NCBI RefSeq assembly: GCF_003004785.1
Contig: NZ_PVZS01000003.1
Coordinates: 1 to 64,000, forward strand
Origin: Alsobacter soli
Lineage (GTDB): Bacteria > Pseudomonadota > Alphaproteobacteria > Rhizobiales > Beijerinckiaceae
Direction of reading: 5' to 3'
DNA length: 64,000 bases
Below are positions 30,638-36,998 of the stretch, one piece after another; within the stretch, counting starts at the first letter, position 1, and each line of letters begins with the position of its first letter. The notes under the pieces were generated by a model. That model ran no database searches. It saw only the letters and a program-made list of their open reading frames with translations, and had not been told where the DNA came from. The translations under genes and the position numbers were made by a program.

Positions 30638-30735
30638 CTCCCCGATAAGAATTTGTCGGATTGCGGGGCCCCTCCGCAAGGCCCAATCTCGTCCGCACTC
30701 GCGCTTGGCGCGCACGGCCGCAGGAGCCTCCCGGA

Positions 30736-31443
30736 ATGTCCTTCGCAGACTTCAAGGTCATGACCTTCGACATCGTCGGAACGTGCATCGATTTCGAGAA
30801 AGGCGTTCTCGACGGCTTCCGCGCGATGGGCGGCGCCGCTGCGCAAAATCTGAGCGACGAGGACATCTTCGCTCCCTACCTTGCCGGCCGGGCGAAGTTC
30901 CCGGGCCGCTCCAGCGTCGTAATGAGGGACGTGTACATCTACGCCGCCAAGGAACTGGGGCTGCCGCACGACGACGCCGCAGCCAACGGGTTCATGTGGC
31001 GCTTCTTCCAGTATCCCGCCTTCCCGGATTCCGCCGACGCGCTCCGCAGGCTTCGCCGCCGGTTCCGCCTCGTCGCCATGACGAACTTCGACCGCGTGGC
31101 CTACAGCGCCTGCGCCAACACCCTCGGGCTGCCATTCCATGACAGCGTCACGGTCGACGACGCGCAATATCCGAAGCCCGACCCGCGCTTCTTCTCGTAC
31201 AACCTTGGGCGCCAGTCGGCCTTCGGCTACCGGCAGGAAGACATCCTCCACGTGGCCCAGAGCCAGTACCACGACATCGGGGTCGCTCGCGAACTGGGGT
31301 ACAAGGTCTGCTGGATCGAGCGCCGCAAGGGCATGAAGGGGTTCGGCGGCACGCCCGAGCCCAAGTCCGTGACCAAGCCGGATTTCCATTTCGCCAGCCT
31401 CGGCGAGCTTGCCGACGCCGTCGACCGCGAGTTCGGCCGTTGA
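30736..31443 (+). CDS. HAD-superfamily hydrolase, haloacid dehalogenase type II-like
   Basis: 235 residues. HAD motif I FDIVGTCIDFEKG supplies the nucleophilic aspartate, motif II is AMTNFDRVAY, motif III is YPKPDPRFFSY and motif IV region is HVAQSQYHDIGVAREL. The cap domain lies between motifs I and II, as in (S)-2-haloacid dehalogenases and related phosphatases. Activity on halo-acids cannot be claimed from sequence. ATG 30736 has AGGAG upstream. Divergently transcribed from a LysR regulator, so probably inducible. Confidence 0.82.
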   Translation: MSFADFKVMTFDIVGTCIDFEKGVLDGFRAMGGAAAQNLSDEDIFAPYLAGRAKFPGRSSVVMRDVYIYAAKELGLPHDDAAANGFMWRFFQYPAFPDSADALRRLRRRFRLVAMTNFDRVAYSACANTLGLPFHDSVTVDDAQYPKPDPRFFSYNLGRQSAFGYRQEDILHVAQSQYHDIGVARELGYKVCWIERRKGMKGFGGTPEPKSVTKPDFHFASLGELADAVDREFGR

Positions 31444-31525: not shown

Positions 31526-32455
31526 TCAGCGGGCCTTCCTTACCGAGACCTGCTCTCGCTCCAGCTCGGCGCCAGCGCTTTCCTGGCGCATGACGGTCCC
31601 GATGCCGATGATCACGGGTCCGTCGGAGGGAAGCGGAAACGGGCCTCTCAGCTCGTCCAGCGTTCCGCGCCAGATCCGCTGGCTCGGGCGCGAGACGTCG
31701 CGAGCCACGAGAGTCGGCGTGTCCGCCGGCAGGCCCTCCGCGATCAGCCGTTCGGCGATCCGCGACGCCGTCTTGCCGCCCATGTAGATGATCGTGGTCG
31801 AGCGTGGGTCGGCGAGCCTCGCCCAGTCGAGGTCGCTCGGCACGTCGCCGTGGCGGTCGCGGCCGGTGACGAAATGCACCGCCTGCGCCTCGCCGCGGCG
31901 GCTGAGCGAAACGCCAAGCTCAGCCGCGAGCGCCAGGCCGGTGGTGATGCCGGGAACGACGGCCACCGGGATGCCGGCCGCCCGGAGCTCCTCGATCTCC
32001 TCCCCCGCCCGGCCGAAGATCATGGGGTCGCCGGACTTCAGGCGCACCACGTGCCTGCCCGCGCGCGCGAGCGTGAGCATGAGCGCGTTGATGTCCGCCT
32101 GCGCGCAGGACGGCCGGTCCCCCCGCTTCCCGACCATCATGCGCTTCGCCTCGCGGCGGGCGAGGTCGAGAACGCCGTCGGAGACAAGGTCGTCGAACAG
32201 GATCACGTCGGCCGCCTGCAGCGCCCGCACGGCGTTGAGGGTCAGCAGGCCTGGATCGCCCGGCCCCGCGCCGACGAGAGTGACGCGCCCTCCATGGCCG
32301 CCGCGGCAAGCGGGTTCACCCGTGCGTGCGCCATCGGCACGCGGCGCCGCCCCGAAGGCGCGCCTAGCCAGCTTCCCCAGCCGGGCCGTCTCGGCGCCGT
32401 CCGGCGCGCGAGCGGAAGGGACCAGGGTGGGAACGCGGCCTGACGTCTCGCTCAT
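31526..32455 (-). CDS. cobA: Uroporphyrinogen-III C-methyltransferase (SUMT)
   Basis: 309 residues. It methylates uroporphyrinogen III at C2 and C7 to precorrin-2 using SAM, the first committed step to siroheme, the cofactor of the nitrite reductase encoded nearby. Conserved SUMT sequence: VTLVGAGPGDPGLLTLNAVRAL, VGKRGDRPSCAQADIN, VVRLKSGDPMIFGRAGEEIE, VVPGITTGLALAAELG and GRDRHGD. A low-complexity N-terminal extension of about 55 residues is unusual. No oxidase/ferrochelatase domain is fused, so other genes must finish siroheme. Its leader carries a sigma-54 promoter, two ANTAR-type hairpins and a terminator. Confidence 0.92.
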   Translation of the reverse strand: MSETSGRVPTLVPSARAPDGAETARLGKLARRAFGAAPRADGARTGEPACRGGHGGRVTLVGAGPGDPGLLTLNAVRALQAADVILFDDLVSDGVLDLARREAKRMMVGKRGDRPSCAQADINALMLTLARAGRHVVRLKSGDPMIFGRAGEEIEELRAAGIPVAVVPGITTGLALAAELGVSLSRRGEAQAVHFVTGRDRHGDVPSDLDWARLADPRSTTIIYMGGKTASRIAERLIAEGLPADTPTLVARDVSRPSQRIWRGTLDELRGPFPLPSDGPVIIGIGTVMRQESAGAELEREQVSVRKAR

Positions 32456-32469
32456 CGCTTCGAGCTCCC

Positions 32470-32528
32470 AATAAAAATGCCGCCGGCGCGTCCGCGCCTC
32501 CTTAAGCGGAGGCCGGCGCACCGGCGGC
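32470..32528 (-). terminator. Intrinsic terminator in the cobA leader (attenuator)
   Basis: On the minus strand GCCGCCGG (32521-32528) pairs with CCGGCGGC (32479-32486), enclosing a further GCCTCC-GCTTAA-GGAGGC hairpin, and is followed at once by ATTTTTATT. This is a factor-independent terminator upstream of the cobA ATG. Its 5' arm overlaps the second six-base-loop hairpin, so the two structures exclude each other. Confidence 0.75.
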
Positions 32529-32575
32529 GTTGCCGGATGCCCACAATGTGGGCAGTTGGGGATCGCCCTTGATCC
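32521..32575 (-). promoter_or_regulatory. ANTAR (NasT) target RNA in the cobA leader
   Basis: Minus-strand RNA folds into P1 GGATC-AAGGGC-GATCC (32560-32575) and P2 CCGGC-AACGCC-GCCGG (32521-32536). Both loops are six bases with A at position 1 and G at position 4, the recognition pattern of ANTAR proteins. Between them lies an extra hairpin GCCCAC-ATT-GTGGGC (32539-32553). P2 shares its 3' arm with the terminator, so NasT binding would favour read-through into cobA. Confidence 0.72.
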
Positions 32576-32588
32576 TGGGGCCCAACAA

Positions 32589-32604
32589 GCATGCCGCGTG
32601 CCAA
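32589..32604 (-). promoter_or_regulatory. Sigma-54 promoter of cobA
   Basis: The minus-strand sequence TTGGCACGCGGCATGC has the -24 GG and -12 GC elements ten bases apart and matches TTGGCACG-N4-TTGC with one mismatch. Transcription would begin near 32577, two bases before the first ANTAR hairpin, the same geometry as at nirB. Confidence 0.68.
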
Positions 32605-32688
32605 GGACGCCGGCACGCCGCAGCCCTCGCCCGAAGCGCAGCGCGCTCTGGCCCGCCGCTTGCTTGGCGCGTGGCGACAAGGAAGCCG

Positions 32689-33294
32689 ATGCAGTCCAAG
32701 AGCCTGAACGTCGCCGTCGTCGACACCAATCCCATCAGGGCCGCGATCCTGTGCGACGGACTGCAAGCCGCCGGCATCGAAACGGTGCACGTCATCCGCG
32801 ACACCACGGGCGTGATGCGCGTACTGGCGGACCTCGCGCCGGATGTGGTGATCATCGATCTCGAGGATCCCAACCGCGACGTGCTGGAGCAGATGTTCCA
32901 GGTCTCGCGCAGCGTGTCCCGCCCGGTTGCCATGTTCGTCGACCAGTCGGACGCGAGCATGATCGAGGCGGCCATCGATGCGGGCGTGTCCGCCTATATC
33001 GTGGACGGGCTCCGCGCCGACCGGGTCAAGCCTATCGTGGACATGGCGATCAGCCGCTTCAACGCCTTCGCGAGGCTCAGGCGCGAGCTCGACGAAACGC
33101 GCCAGGAGCTGGCCGACCGCAAGACGGTCGACCGCGCCAAGGGGCTGCTGATGCGGGCCAAGGGGCTCGGCGAGGCGGAGGCTTACGCTCTCCTGCGCTC
33201 CACCGCCATGAAGCAGAGCCGCAAGATCATCGACGTCGCCGAAAGCATCATCCTGGCGGCCGACCTCCTCGGACCCAAGGGAGACGCCTCGTGA
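32689..33294 (+). CDS. nasT: NasT, ANTAR-domain RNA-binding antiterminator
   Basis: 201 residues. The N-terminal receiver-like domain has VAVVDTNPIR and VVIIDLEDP but lacks the usual switch lysine (YIVDGLRAD), so it is probably controlled by NasS binding rather than phosphorylation. The C-terminal ANTAR domain (about 135-195) reads RKTVDRAKGLLMRAKGLGEA and continues to SRKIIDVAESII. In the known NasS-NasT systems nitrate releases NasT from NasS, and NasT then prevents termination in target leaders. Two candidate targets are in this window. The start is ATG 32689 with GGAAG upstream; the stop overlaps nasS (GTGA). Confidence 0.9.
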   Translation: MQSKSLNVAVVDTNPIRAAILCDGLQAAGIETVHVIRDTTGVMRVLADLAPDVVIIDLEDPNRDVLEQMFQVSRSVSRPVAMFVDQSDASMIEAAIDAGVSAYIVDGLRADRVKPIVDMAISRFNAFARLRRELDETRQELADRKTVDRAKGLLMRAKGLGEAEAYALLRSTAMKQSRKIIDVAESIILAADLLGPKGDAS

Positions 33295-34334
33295 ACACGG
33301 TTCTGCGCGTCGGCTTCATTCCCCTGGTGGACGCCGCTTCACTGATCGTGGCGGCGCACAAGGGCTTCGCCGCCGCCCAAGGCCTCGCGCTCGATCTGCA
33401 GCGGCAGATGTCCTGGGCCACGATCCGCGACAGGATTGCGACGGGCAGGCTCGACGCCGCCCACATGCTCGCCCCCATGCCCATCGCGGCGGCGCTCGGC
33501 ATGCCCAAGGGAGCGCCGCGACTGATCGCGCCGGTCGCCCTGGGTTACAACGGCAACGCCGTCACCGTCTCCGAACGGCTCTGGAGCGCCATGGTCGAGC
33601 AGGGCGCGACCGAGACGGGGGATCCGGCGGCCAACGGCGCGGCGCTCGCTCGGGTCGTCCAGGCGCGACCTGCCGGGAGCGGGCCGCTGTCGCTCGCGGT
33701 CGTCTTTCCTTTTTCGCCGCACCGCTACGAACTCCTGGACTGGCTCTCCGGCGCGGGACTGGTCCCCGAGCGCGACGTGCGCCTGCCGGTGGTCCCGCCG
33801 CCTTTCATGGCGGATGCGCTCGAAGCCGGGTTGATCGACGGGTTCTGCGTCGGCGAGCCCTGGAACAGCGCCGCGATCCTGGGCGGCCACGGCAGGCTGG
33901 CGACCACCAAGGCGGCGCTGATGGGGCGCGGCCCGGAAAAGGTGCTCGCCCTGCGCGCCGATTGGGCAGAAGCGCATGAGGAGAGCGCGCTTGCGCTCAC
34001 GCGCGCCATCGTGGGGGCAGCGCGTTGGTGCGACGCGCCCGAGAACCGGGAGGAACTCGTCGCCCTTCTCGCCGCATCCGACGCCCTGGACTGCCCACCC
34101 GAGCAACTGCGGCCGGTTCTCTCCGGCGAACTGCCGCTCGATGCGACGCGGCGCCTGTGCGCGCCAGAGGCCATCGTCTTCCATGCGGAGGGGGCCACCG
34201 AGCCAAGCCTCGGCCACGCCGAGTGGTTCTACCGGCAGATGACCCGTTGGGGCGACGCGCCGGGCGGCGCCGAGGCACGCGCCGCCGCGCTCGCCTGCTT
34301 CCGGCCTGATCTTTATGCGCGCGCCCTGGGCTGA
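33291..34334 (+). CDS. nasS: NasS, nitrate-sensing NrtA/CmpA-like protein
   Basis: 347 residues and no signal peptide, so it is cytoplasmic, unlike the transport-associated NrtA. It has the NMT1-like bilobed fold of nitrate/bicarbonate binding proteins: VGFIPLVDAASLIVAAHKGF, MLAPMPIAAALGMPKGAP, PPFMADALEAGLIDGFCVGEPWN and the C-terminal HAEGATEPSLGHAEWFYRQM. It is expected to hold NasT inactive until nitrate binds. The GTG start overlaps the nasT stop. The 210 bases between its stop and nirB hold the regulated leader. Confidence 0.9.
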   Translation: MNTVLRVGFIPLVDAASLIVAAHKGFAAAQGLALDLQRQMSWATIRDRIATGRLDAAHMLAPMPIAAALGMPKGAPRLIAPVALGYNGNAVTVSERLWSAMVEQGATETGDPAANGAALARVVQARPAGSGPLSLAVVFPFSPHRYELLDWLSGAGLVPERDVRLPVVPPPFMADALEAGLIDGFCVGEPWNSAAILGGHGRLATTKAALMGRGPEKVLALRADWAEAHEESALALTRAIVGAARWCDAPENREELVALLAASDALDCPPEQLRPVLSGELPLDATRRLCAPEAIVFHAEGATEPSLGHAEWFYRQMTRWGDAPGGAEARAAALACFRPDLYARALG

Positions 34335-34418: not shown

Positions 34419-34435
34419 TTGGCACGCTCCCTGCA
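34419..34435 (+). promoter_or_regulatory. Sigma-54 promoter of the nirB operon
   Basis: TTGGCACGCTCCCTGCA matches the RpoN consensus TTGGCACG-N4-TTGCA with one mismatch, and the GG and GC elements are ten bases apart. Transcription would start near 34446, just before the first leader hairpin. NtrC-type nitrogen control is implied; no clear NtrC site was identified upstream. Confidence 0.75.
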
Positions 34436-34451
34436 AGGATCTTTGCATCCA

Positions 34452-34508
34452 GGACTGCAACGACGCAGTCCCCTCTCCGCAGAGCCTCATCGCGCAACGG
34501 CGCGCGAT
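34452..34508 (+). promoter_or_regulatory. ANTAR (NasT) target RNA in the nirB leader
   Basis: Two perfect 7-bp hairpins with six-base loops: P1 GGACTGC-AACGAC-GCAGTCC (34452-34471) and P2 ATCGCGC-AACGGC-GCGCGAT (34489-34508). Both loops have A at position 1 and G at position 4, as required for ANTAR proteins. They lie between the predicted start at about 34446 and the nirB ATG at 34545. A weak GC-rich stem may follow P2 but it has no T-run. Confidence 0.8.
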
Positions 34509-34544
34509 CCGGACCGCGGCCTCCCAGACATTCAGGATTTGGAC

Positions 34545-36998
34545 ATGGCCACACGTTCGCTCGTGGTCGTCGGCAATGGCATGGCCCCCGGCCGCGCCCT
34601 GGAGCGCCTGTTCGAAGCCGCCCCCGACGCCTTCAAGGTCACGATTTTCAACGCCGAGCCGCGGGTCAACTACGACCGCATTATGCTCTCGCCCGTCCTG
34701 GCCGGCGAGAAGGGCTTCGAGGACATCGTCATCCATGACGACGCCTGGTACGCCGAGCGCGGGGTCACCCTGCACAAGGGGCGCAAGGTCGTCGCCATCG
34801 ACCGCGCCGCCAAGACCGTCACGGCCGAGGACGGTACGACGGCGGCCTATGACGAGCTGATCATCGCCACCGGCTCCCAGCCCTTCATGCTTCCCGTACC
34901 CGGCCAGACGCTGCCCGGCGTCGTCGCCTATCGCGACCTCGACGACGTGGAGGCGATGCTCGCCGCCGCTCGCAAGGGCGGCAAGGCGGTGGTCATCGGC
35001 GGCGGCTTGCTCGGCCTCGAGGCGGCGGCGGGCCTGAAGGCCCAGGGCATGGATGTCGTGGTGCTCCACCTGATGCCGCACCTGATGGAGCGCCAGCTCG
35101 ACCAGGCCGCCGGCTACCTTCTGGAGCGCGCCATCGCGGCGCGGGGGATCACCGTCCACTGCAAGGCCAACACGCACGAGCTCCTGGGCGTCGACCGCGT
35201 GACGGGCGTCCGGCTCGACGACGGCACGATCTACGAGGCCGACATCGTGGTGATGGCCGTCGGCGTCCGTCCGAACGCCGACCTCGCCCGCAAGGCCGGG
35301 CTCGACGTCAACCGCGGCGTCCTCGTGGACGACAGGATGCGCACCTCCGATCCGTCCATCTTCGCGCTGGGCGAATGTGTGGAGCACCGCGGCGCCGTCT
35401 ATGGCCTCGTCGCCCCGCTCTACGAGATGGCCAAGGTGGTGGCGGCCCAGCTCACGGGCGACGCCTCGGCCGCATATCGCGGATCGGTGACCGCGACGAA
35501 GCTCAAGGTCACGGGCTGCGACCTCTACTCGGCCGGGGATTTCGCGGACGGGCCGGGCCGCGAGGAGATCGTGCTGCGCGACCCCGCGGCGGGCGTCTAC
35601 AAGCGGCTGGTCCTGAAGGACGACGTCATCATCGGCGCCGTGCTCTATGGCGATACGGCGGACGGCCCCTGGTTCTTCGACATGATCAGGCAGAAGACCG
35701 ACGTCTCGGCCATGCGCCAGACGCTGATCTTCGGCCAGTCCTACCAGGGAGGCGCCTCCCTGGACCCTATGGCCGCCGTTGCAGCCTTGCCGGATGAGGC
35801 GGAGATCTGCGGCTGCAACGGCGTCTGCAAGGGCACGATCTCGTCGATCATCACCGCGAAGGGTCTGACCGGCCTGGAGGAGGTGCGCGCGCACACCAAG
35901 GCTTCGGCCTCCTGCGGCTCGTGCACGGGCCTTGTCGAGCAGGTGATCCGCCTCGCGCTGGGGGACGCCTACAACCCGGCGGCCGTGCAGCCCATGTGCG
36001 GCTGCACCGAGCTGGGCCACGACGACGTGCGCCGGCTCATCCGGGCCAAGTCGCTGAAGTCCATCCCGGCCGTTATGCAGGAACTCGGCTGGAAGACCTC
36101 CTGCGGCTGCGCCAAGTGTCGGCCGGCGCTGAACTACTACCTCGTGTGCGACTGGCCCGGCGAATACGAGGACGACAACCAGTCGCGCTTCGTCAACGAG
36201 CGCGTCCACGCCAACATCCAGAAGGACGGCACCTTCTCCGTCGTCCCCCGGATGTGGGGCGGTCTGACGAGCGCGAAGGAGCTTCGCGCCATCGCCGACG
36301 TGGTGGACAAGTTCGCCATCCCGACCGTGAAGGTCACGGGCGGGCAGCGGATCGACCTGCTGGGCGTCCAGAAGCAGGACCTGCCCGCCGTCTGGGCGGA
36401 CCTCAACGCCGCAGGAATGATCTCCGGCGCCGCCTACGCCAAGGGCCTGCGCACGGTGAAGACGTGCGTCGGCTCCGACTGGTGCCGCTTCGGCACGCAG
36501 GATTCCACGGGCCTCGGGGTCAAGCTCGAGAAGTTCATGTGGGGTTCCTGGACGCCCGCCAAGCTGAAGATGGGTGTTTCCGGCTGTCCGCGGAATTGCG
36601 CGGAGGCCACCTGCAAGGACATCGGCGTCATCTGCGTCGACAGCGGCTACGAGATCCACTTCGGCGGCGCCGCCGGGCTGGACATCAAGGGCACGGAGGT
36701 CCTCGGGCACGCCAGGTCCGAGGCAGAGGCGATCGAGATCATCGCCGCCCTCACCCAGCTCTACCGCGAGGAAGGGCGCTATCTCGAGCGCATCTACAAA
36801 TGGGCCAAGCGCGTCGGCGCGCCCCACATCCGCGCCGCGGTCGTCGACGACCGCGAGAAGCGCCGGAGCCTCTTCGAGCGCTTCGTCGTGAGCCAGAAGA
36901 CCGCCCAGGTCGACCCCTGGGCCGAGCGCGTGGCGGGCAAGGACGCCCACGAATTCAAGCCGCTCGAGAGCATCCGCTTCATCCAGGCCGCAGAGTGA
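34545..36998 (+). CDS. nirB: Assimilatory nitrite reductase [NAD(P)H] large subunit
   Basis: 817 residues. Reduces nitrite to ammonium in the cytoplasm with NirD. Domains: FAD/NAD(P)-dependent oxidoreductase (about 1-400; VVVGNGMAPGRALERL, VIGGGLLGLEAAAGL), two BFD-like [2Fe-2S] domains (CGCNGVCKGTISS with CGSCTGL; CGCTELGHDDVRR with CGCAKCRPAL), then the sulfite/nitrite reductase half-domains ending with the siroheme-[4Fe-4S] ligands in CVGSDWCRFG and GVSGCPRNCAEATCKD. ATG 34545 starts ATRSLVVVGNGM; the longer frame runs back into the leader hairpins. Its transcript begins with the NasT target RNA. Confidence 0.95.
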   Translation: MATRSLVVVGNGMAPGRALERLFEAAPDAFKVTIFNAEPRVNYDRIMLSPVLAGEKGFEDIVIHDDAWYAERGVTLHKGRKVVAIDRAAKTVTAEDGTTAAYDELIIATGSQPFMLPVPGQTLPGVVAYRDLDDVEAMLAAARKGGKAVVIGGGLLGLEAAAGLKAQGMDVVVLHLMPHLMERQLDQAAGYLLERAIAARGITVHCKANTHELLGVDRVTGVRLDDGTIYEADIVVMAVGVRPNADLARKAGLDVNRGVLVDDRMRTSDPSIFALGECVEHRGAVYGLVAPLYEMAKVVAAQLTGDASAAYRGSVTATKLKVTGCDLYSAGDFADGPGREEIVLRDPAAGVYKRLVLKDDVIIGAVLYGDTADGPWFFDMIRQKTDVSAMRQTLIFGQSYQGGASLDPMAAVAALPDEAEICGCNGVCKGTISSIITAKGLTGLEEVRAHTKASASCGSCTGLVEQVIRLALGDAYNPAAVQPMCGCTELGHDDVRRLIRAKSLKSIPAVMQELGWKTSCGCAKCRPALNYYLVCDWPGEYEDDNQSRFVNERVHANIQKDGTFSVVPRMWGGLTSAKELRAIADVVDKFAIPTVKVTGGQRIDLLGVQKQDLPAVWADLNAAGMISGAAYAKGLRTVKTCVGSDWCRFGTQDSTGLGVKLEKFMWGSWTPAKLKMGVSGCPRNCAEATCKDIGVICVDSGYEIHFGGAAGLDIKGTEVLGHARSEAEAIEIIAALTQLYREEGRYLERIYKWAKRVGAPHIRAAVVDDREKRRSLFERFVVSQKTAQVDPWAERVAGKDAHEFKPLESIRFIQAAE

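Follow-up and report, generated by a model that had tools for sequence, protein, structure and literature searches.

What controls cobA, the gene for uroporphyrinogen-III C-methyltransferase and the first in the synthesis of siroheme, the pigment required by nitrite reductase, when it stands alone beside the regulators of nitrate assimilation? We analyzed a 64,000-nt stretch of Alsobacter soli DNA (contig NZ_PVZS01000003.1, positions 1 to 64,000; hereafter the window), in which cobA is transcribed away from nasT and the region between the two genes encodes a structured RNA leader. The architecture of this leader, its homology to the nas leaders of related alphaproteobacteria, the arrangement in those relatives and the single ANTAR-family protein found in the genome lead to one answer: the cobA leader is very probably a NasT-class ANTAR two-hairpin antitermination switch, at which NasT freed by nitrate or nitrite would open cobA.

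Elements of the cobA leader

The initial annotation of this locus had proposed a sigma-54 promoter motif on the minus strand, two hairpins whose six-base loops carry A at the first and G at the fourth position (A1 and G4), and a terminator that shares an arm with the second hairpin. All of these elements are present at the place proposed:

32456-32688: cobA-nasT intergenic region, between the cobA start (32455, minus strand) and the nasT start (32689, plus strand)
32604-32589, minus strand: sigma-54-type -24/-12 promoter motif TTGGCACGCGGCATGC (GG-N10-GC; TTGGCACG-CGGCA-TGC), from a pattern scan
32575-32560, minus strand: P1 hairpin, GGATC-AAGGGC-GATCC, 5 base pairs (bp), C:G closing pair, loop AAGGGC (A1, G4)
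32537-32559, minus strand: P1-P2 linker with a stable third hairpin, 7 bp, 3-base loop, -11.3 kcal/mol by folding
32536-32521, minus strand: P2 hairpin (antiterminator), CCGGC-AACGCC-GCCGG, 5 bp, C:G closing pair, loop AACGCC (A1, G4)
32528-32479, minus strand: intrinsic terminator, -47.4 kcal/mol by folding, with the same overlap in leaders of relatives
32478-32470, minus strand: T tract ATTTTTATT, directly after the terminator
32469-32465, minus strand: GGGAG, ribosome-binding-like, between the T tract and the cobA ATG (32455)

Two consecutive hairpins with six-base loops, A1, G4 and a C:G closing pair define an ANTAR leader (PMC3369931, PMC7496416), and the cobA leader contains such a pair. 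Selection of RNAs by NasR (systematic evolution of ligands by exponential enrichment) points to loops with A1, G4 and a C:G closing pair (PMC7496416), traits that both cobA leader loops share, and work on EutV points to A1 and G4 of the loops (PMC3369931). The terminator’s 5′ arm, GCCGCCGG, begins inside the P2 loop and includes the entire 3′ arm of P2. Therefore, P2 and the terminator are mutually exclusive. The leader ends 15 nt from the cobA start, and its transcription is predicted to begin near 32577, a position set by the usual distance between a sigma-54 motif and its start site.

The third hairpin in the P1-P2 linker (32537-32559) was absent from the initial annotation; a hairpin-like sequence is visible by eye at the same place in the leaders of loci L190 and L192, from one related genus. 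An NtrC-like palindrome, GGCATCGAAACGGTGCA, with two mismatches to the NtrC consensus, lies inside nasT at 32773-32789, about 200 bp before the point at which cobA transcription is predicted to begin.

Statistics and folding of the leader

The promoter pattern TTGGCACGN5TGC occurs at two sites in the window, before cobA and before nirB, where 0.03 sites are expected; a looser pattern, TGGCACN6TGC, returns the identical two sites but lacks significance of its own, since at least two sites turn up in 19 of 100 shuffles. At the cobA leader, the GG-N10-GC element has the consensus flanks of a sigma-54 promoter. A scan for dual A1/G4 hairpins also gave two matches, the cobA and nirB leaders, whereas 20 simulated sequences averaged 0.5 per 64 kb. 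When an overlapping terminator and a T run were required as well, the cobA leader was the sole match in the window, no match arose in 30 simulated 64-kb sequences, and 1.14 Mb of fetched loci yielded one, in L029, which is probably spurious.

The cobA leader RNA folds much more stably than shuffled sequences (z-score -7.0). The folding energy of the terminator state is -67.5 kcal/mol, versus -53.1 kcal/mol when P1 and P2 are enforced; consequently, P2 would need a protein to stabilize it while the RNA is being made. P1 appears in folds begun at 32577, and folds begun upstream of the likely start (32595, 32590) paired promoter bases with the leader.

Homology to the nas leaders of relatives

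Of 298 family genomes, 162 encode NasT relatives at E 1e-20 or better; the weakest matches, at 35-40% identity, may be other ANTAR regulators. We examined 77 NasT-region loci (L118-L146, L172-L219), and removed L176, L179 and L206, which have no located nasT or nasS, leaving 74. Within 1.6 kb behind nasS, 31 of these 74 loci have an A..G.. loop hairpin and a terminator with a T run that takes over the 3′ arm of that hairpin; the rate is rough, since many loci extend no more than about 450 bases past nasS (and L175 and L202 hardly at all), some loci were fetched in duplicate, and the matches in L201 and L207 and the second match in L188 look spurious. The usual form in relatives is CAGC-AAYGCC-GCTG followed by CAGCGGC-TTTTT, while L190, L192 and L197 have CGGC-AAYGCC-GCCG, the same form as the window.

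A covariance model, R1, was built from an alignment of 17 leaders of relatives with a recognizable P1, picked by eye from 28 (two with their ends set by hand) and excluding the window. Applied to the window, R1 ranked the cobA leader first at 44.2 bits (E 8e-11), with the second match at 13.3 bits; applied to the whole 5.19-Mb genome, it ranked the cobA leader first with the same score (E 6.4e-9), ahead of a match at 21.3 bits (E 0.018), where all of these E-values are rough. A score of 44 bits is inside the range that nas leaders reach in relatives. By its score and its first rank in window and genome, the cobA leader is homologous in sequence and structure to the NasT-class nas leaders. The other R1 matches in the same genome, at 21.3 bits and below, were taken as chance, and three that we checked (L221-L223) precede no recognized gene.

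In the alignment, one base (column 67) retains two alternative partners. It pairs with column 56 within P2, as A-U in 13 leaders and G-C in four, and with column 121 within the terminator, as U-A in 11, C-G in four and U-G in two. Most other P2 and terminator pairs have little or no variation.

Weak ones included, R1 matches at E 0.01 or better occur in 157 of the 298 family genomes, and together they provide a map of candidate NasT leaders. An ANTAR-family search of the whole A. soli genome (5.19 Mb, 96 contigs) found one protein, the NasT that adjoins cobA, in agreement with the initial annotation, which had placed NasT next door.

Position of the leader in relatives

We paired 150 CobA places with 150 R1 places among the family matches listed, which gave 41 pairs on the same contig and strand. 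One pair has the leader less than 1 kb upstream of CobA, and it is the window’s own (15 nt). In 33 other pairs, less than 20 kb apart, the leader lies 6.1-11.7 kb upstream of the CobA match, and the other seven pairs are farther apart or in reverse order. Among the same listed matches, the leader is 1.2-1.6 kb behind nasT in 31 of the 33 pairs, the exceptions being G271, where nasT is elsewhere, and G220, where no nasT is listed. Thus, NasT control of cobA or cysG by way of the nas genes appears to be the usual state in relatives that have both on one contig. At the order level (397 genomes, overlapping the family sample), 78 R1 places were compared with 41 CobA places in genomes with an R1 match, and 21 pairs shared contig and strand. 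These comprise the window’s own pair, 19 pairs in which the leader precedes CobA by 4.4-14.1 kb, and a single widely separated pair.

The gene directly behind the leader was identified at 79 fetched loci, where R1 made 84 matches; four below 20 bits (L302, L255, L296, L264), each on the opposite strand to or far from a stronger match, were dropped, leaving 80. Judged by the longest reading frame that begins no more than 420 nt after each of these leaders, the first gene is NrtA-like in 37 (27-33% identity to the window NasS), outer-membrane-type in 13, NarK-like in nine, NirB in four, unrecognized in 16, and cobA in one, the window. The window’s leader thus has as its first gene a cobA beside nasTS-nirB, where nrtA-like, narK-like or nirB genes are usual. 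The 29 closest family NasT loci were inspected with about 1.5 kb of flank (a few, cut by contig ends, offered less), and cobA adjoins nasT in none of them.

The 13 R1-type leaders before outer-membrane-type proteins are at L260-L264, L268, L270, L271, L295, L255, L259, L236 and L277. The L277 protein matches Pfam Porin_2, the L263 protein has no Pfam match, and the other members are grouped by similarity alone. A nitrate-inducible porin branch of the NasT regulon is possible, and our literature search found no report linking ANTAR proteins, nitrate assimilation and porins. In L169, L173 and L174, the gene order is nasT-nasS-cysG (in L169, only the end of nasS is present), and the scan found no A1/G4 hairpin pair there. 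At L140:110-156 (minus strand), a dual A1/G4 pair (AACGAC, AACGAA) faces away from nasT toward the contig end, with its target gene off the contig.

Genes around the proposed switch and the nirB leader

The leader is surrounded by the following features:

30661-31443, plus strand: HAD-type hydrolase, the next gene identified past cobA, convergent with it
31529..32455, minus strand: cobA, uroporphyrinogen-III C-methyltransferase, 309 amino acids, CobA domain only (TIGR01469 247 bits, cut-off 185; PF00590)
32689..33294, plus strand: nasT, response-regulator-like and ANTAR RNA-binding protein, divergent from cobA (ANTAR 66.5 bits; searched 32692-33294)
33291..34334, plus strand: nasS-like nitrate/nitrite sensor, NMT1_2 family (profile match)
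34419..34508, plus strand: nirB leader, with a sigma-54 motif at 34419-34434 and two A1/G4 hairpins at 34452-34508, loops AACGAC and AACGGC
34545..36998, plus strand: nirB, large subunit of a siroheme-type assimilatory nitrite reductase (NIR_SIR domain; TIGR02374 900 bits, cut-off 578; searched 34491-36998)

We take the product of 33291..34334 to be NasS from its place behind nasT and from similarity. After nirB comes a molybdopterin oxidoreductase that resembles assimilatory nitrate reductases, with no equivalog model above its cut-off, and the nas cluster also includes a NarK-type MFS transporter (TIGR00886 303 bits, slightly below the cut-off of 311.7).

The N-terminal (dehydrogenase/ferrochelatase) domain of CysG was not found in the window CobA, which scores 317 bits against PRK10637, below the cut-off of 400, and is not a trifunctional CysG by these measures. 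Because the window protein is CobA only, siroheme synthesis here would need CysG-B activity from elsewhere, for example from the full-length CysG that is also encoded, on contig C7; no search for a stand-alone CysG-B gene was made. The CysG N-terminal domain precedes the CobA domain in 131 of 135 CobA loci tested, a set that includes the window and some places fetched twice. The four CobA-only loci are the window and three from Filomicrobium metagenome-assembled genomes (L025, L029, L076), in which the gene directly follows nasA; the other relatives tested have a full CysG. The CobA of L029 has the highest identity to the window’s among the loci tested (66.8%). We also considered that the CobA-only state arose by an in-place deletion of the CysG N-terminal domain beside the leader, an idea weakened by the three Filomicrobium loci, which are CobA-only directly after nasA.

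The nirB leader is a second ANTAR-type leader in the window, absent from the initial annotation, and R1 gives it just 5.8 bits. Control of nirB translation through P2 was unsupported: forced folds barely changed the accessibility of the ribosome site.

Proposed mechanism and its alternatives

In the proposed mechanism, sigma-54, probably together with NtrC under nitrogen limitation, would start transcription a few bases before P1, near 32577. Without nitrate or nitrite, NasS would hold NasT; without free NasT, P2 would yield to the far more stable overlapping terminator, and transcription would stop before cobA, near 32470. With nitrate or nitrite, NasT would be released, would bind the emerging P1 and P2 and would hold P2, so that RNA polymerase could enter cobA and more precorrin-2 would be available for the siroheme of NirB. 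The initial annotation had also suggested a NasT antitermination leader for cobA that matches siroheme supply to nitrite reductase demand. The leader is supported by its first rank under R1, by the sole ANTAR protein found, and by the recurrence of its loops and shared arm in the relatives’ nas leaders; the matching of siroheme to demand is plausible, but the protein is CobA only and its precorrin-2 could also feed vitamin B12 synthesis. Computation shows the elements, their homology to nas leaders, the sole ANTAR protein and the gene order in relatives; promoter use, NasT binding, nitrate-dependent read-through and the siroheme purpose are inferred.

Several observations weigh against this mechanism. 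The loops and the overlapping terminator, whose conservation the initial annotation had named as the check, are kept in related nas leaders, but the leader stands directly before cobA in no other genome examined, and its placement there is without conservation support. In Bradyrhizobium diazoefficiens, narK-bjgb-flp has NasT-type hairpins and yet is expressed more strongly in a nasT mutant (PMC6759348), so predicting a NasT hairpin does not establish activation. At the gathering threshold, Rfam returned tRNA only across the whole window, which is why we built a covariance model of our own. Within the alignment behind that model, P1 is poorly aligned and modelled with four pairs, and the four G-C rows that carry the covariation come from two genera and represent few independent events. 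The ANTAR-family search matched none of 14 named control genomes, and therefore has no positive control. Finally, no U-tract terminator is recognizable in the nirB leader (34419-34544, plus strand).

How else might the leader be explained? It might act mainly in trans: in the absence of nitrate, the short RNA that ends at the terminator would titrate NasT as a decoy and so tune the nirB operon close by. Among ANTAR proteins, EutV is known to have RNA decoys, the strong terminator and the sigma-54 motif would yield a two-hairpin RNA of about 108 nt, and the nirB leader combines two ANTAR hairpins with the lack of a U-tract. However, the distance of 15 nt to the cobA start and the ribosome-binding-like GGGAG fit a cis-acting switch, and homologous leaders in relatives lie directly before nrtA-like, narK-like and nirB genes; we consider a decoy very improbable. 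It is just as hard to credit that the leader is a plain intrinsic terminator or attenuator, for example one that limits cobA, with a hairpin pair that is a relic no longer binding NasT. The terminator is indeed very strong (-47.4 kcal/mol), P1 is weak (5 bp, -5.3 kcal/mol) and the placement before cobA is not conserved, but the loops, closing pairs, terminator overlap and promoter motif are all intact, and the R1 score falls among those of the relatives’ nas leaders.

The switch could also respond to nitrate while its product serves chiefly cobalamin rather than siroheme. Precorrin-2 is common to both pathways, the window protein is CobA-only, and weaker matches to the methyltransferase model on contig C12 may be corrin-pathway methylases. 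The neighborhood, however, is one of nitrate assimilation with a siroheme-type NirB, and nasA or nirB lies just upstream in 114 of the 135 CobA loci tested; we consider a chiefly cobalamin role very unlikely.

We favor the NasT-controlled antitermination switch in cis. In relatives, cobA or cysG seems to come under the same control as a late gene behind a nas leader, and the window’s cobA appears to have split off, divergent from nasT and with a leader of its own. It is conceivable, though we would sooner doubt it, that cobA, on leaving the nas operon, kept NasT control through a leader copy of its own, giving siroheme synthesis a private, tightly closed nitrate gate; the neighboring nirB operon, in whose leader no terminator is recognizable, would be controlled differently, and one NasT would order cofactor supply and enzyme synthesis separately. 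The coupling of siroheme to nitrate assimilation seems to be kept despite gene splitting, by a shared operon in relatives and by a further copy of the switch in this genome. With one ANTAR protein and two candidate leaders, of which one has a terminator and the other shows none, the locus is a compact test case for how ANTAR regulons grow and for whether leader copies travel with genes.

Comparison with known systems

The cobA leader most resembles the nas leaders of related alphaproteobacteria, which share P1, a P2 with an AAYGCC-type loop, a P2 3′ arm common to the terminator with its T run and, in many cases, the promoter motif. They differ in what follows: their first gene, where recognized, is nrtA-like, narK-like, nirB or outer-membrane-type, and cobA or cysG comes kilobases later. 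In Sinorhizobium meliloti, nirB, nirD, narB and cysG are on one transcript (PMC6616083). In Paracoccus denitrificans, NasT binds the nasA leader (PMC3795266), whose hairpin HI is needed, its mutation strongly lowering expression, whereas mutation of HII has little effect with nitrate (PMC5424462). There, in contrast to the window, nasTS and nasABGHC form one operon; a term search of the two P. denitrificans texts found cobA only in a reference title, and cysG is absent from the searched text of PMC5424462. The NasT regulon of B. diazoefficiens resembles the present case in having NasT-type hairpins at several separate genes, reported or predicted before nosR, coxS, nirA, narK and bjgb (PMC6759348), and differs in that a term search of that text finds no cysG, and cobA only in a reference title. 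More distantly, the Klebsiella NasR/nasF and Enterococcus EutV leaders also have two A1/G4 hairpins, the second of which excludes a terminator (PMC7496416, PMC3369931), but they have another sensor architecture and other targets.

The initial annotation suggested that control of cobA by an ANTAR switch had not been described. In Pseudomonas aeruginosa, however, nirBD-PA1779-cobA is reported to be under RpoN with NtrC and NasT (PMC8092218, citing Romeo 2012), a system that is alike in that RpoN and NasT control reaches cobA by antitermination for nitrate assimilation. The difference is one of arrangement: there, a single leader serves an operon that ends with cobA, whereas the window’s cobA stands alone with the leader directly in front of it. 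Among the open-licence papers searched, we found none that describes an ANTAR leader dedicated to a stand-alone cobA or cysG. The switch class and NasT control reaching cobA are already known; the apparently new feature is that a stand-alone cobA has a leader to itself.
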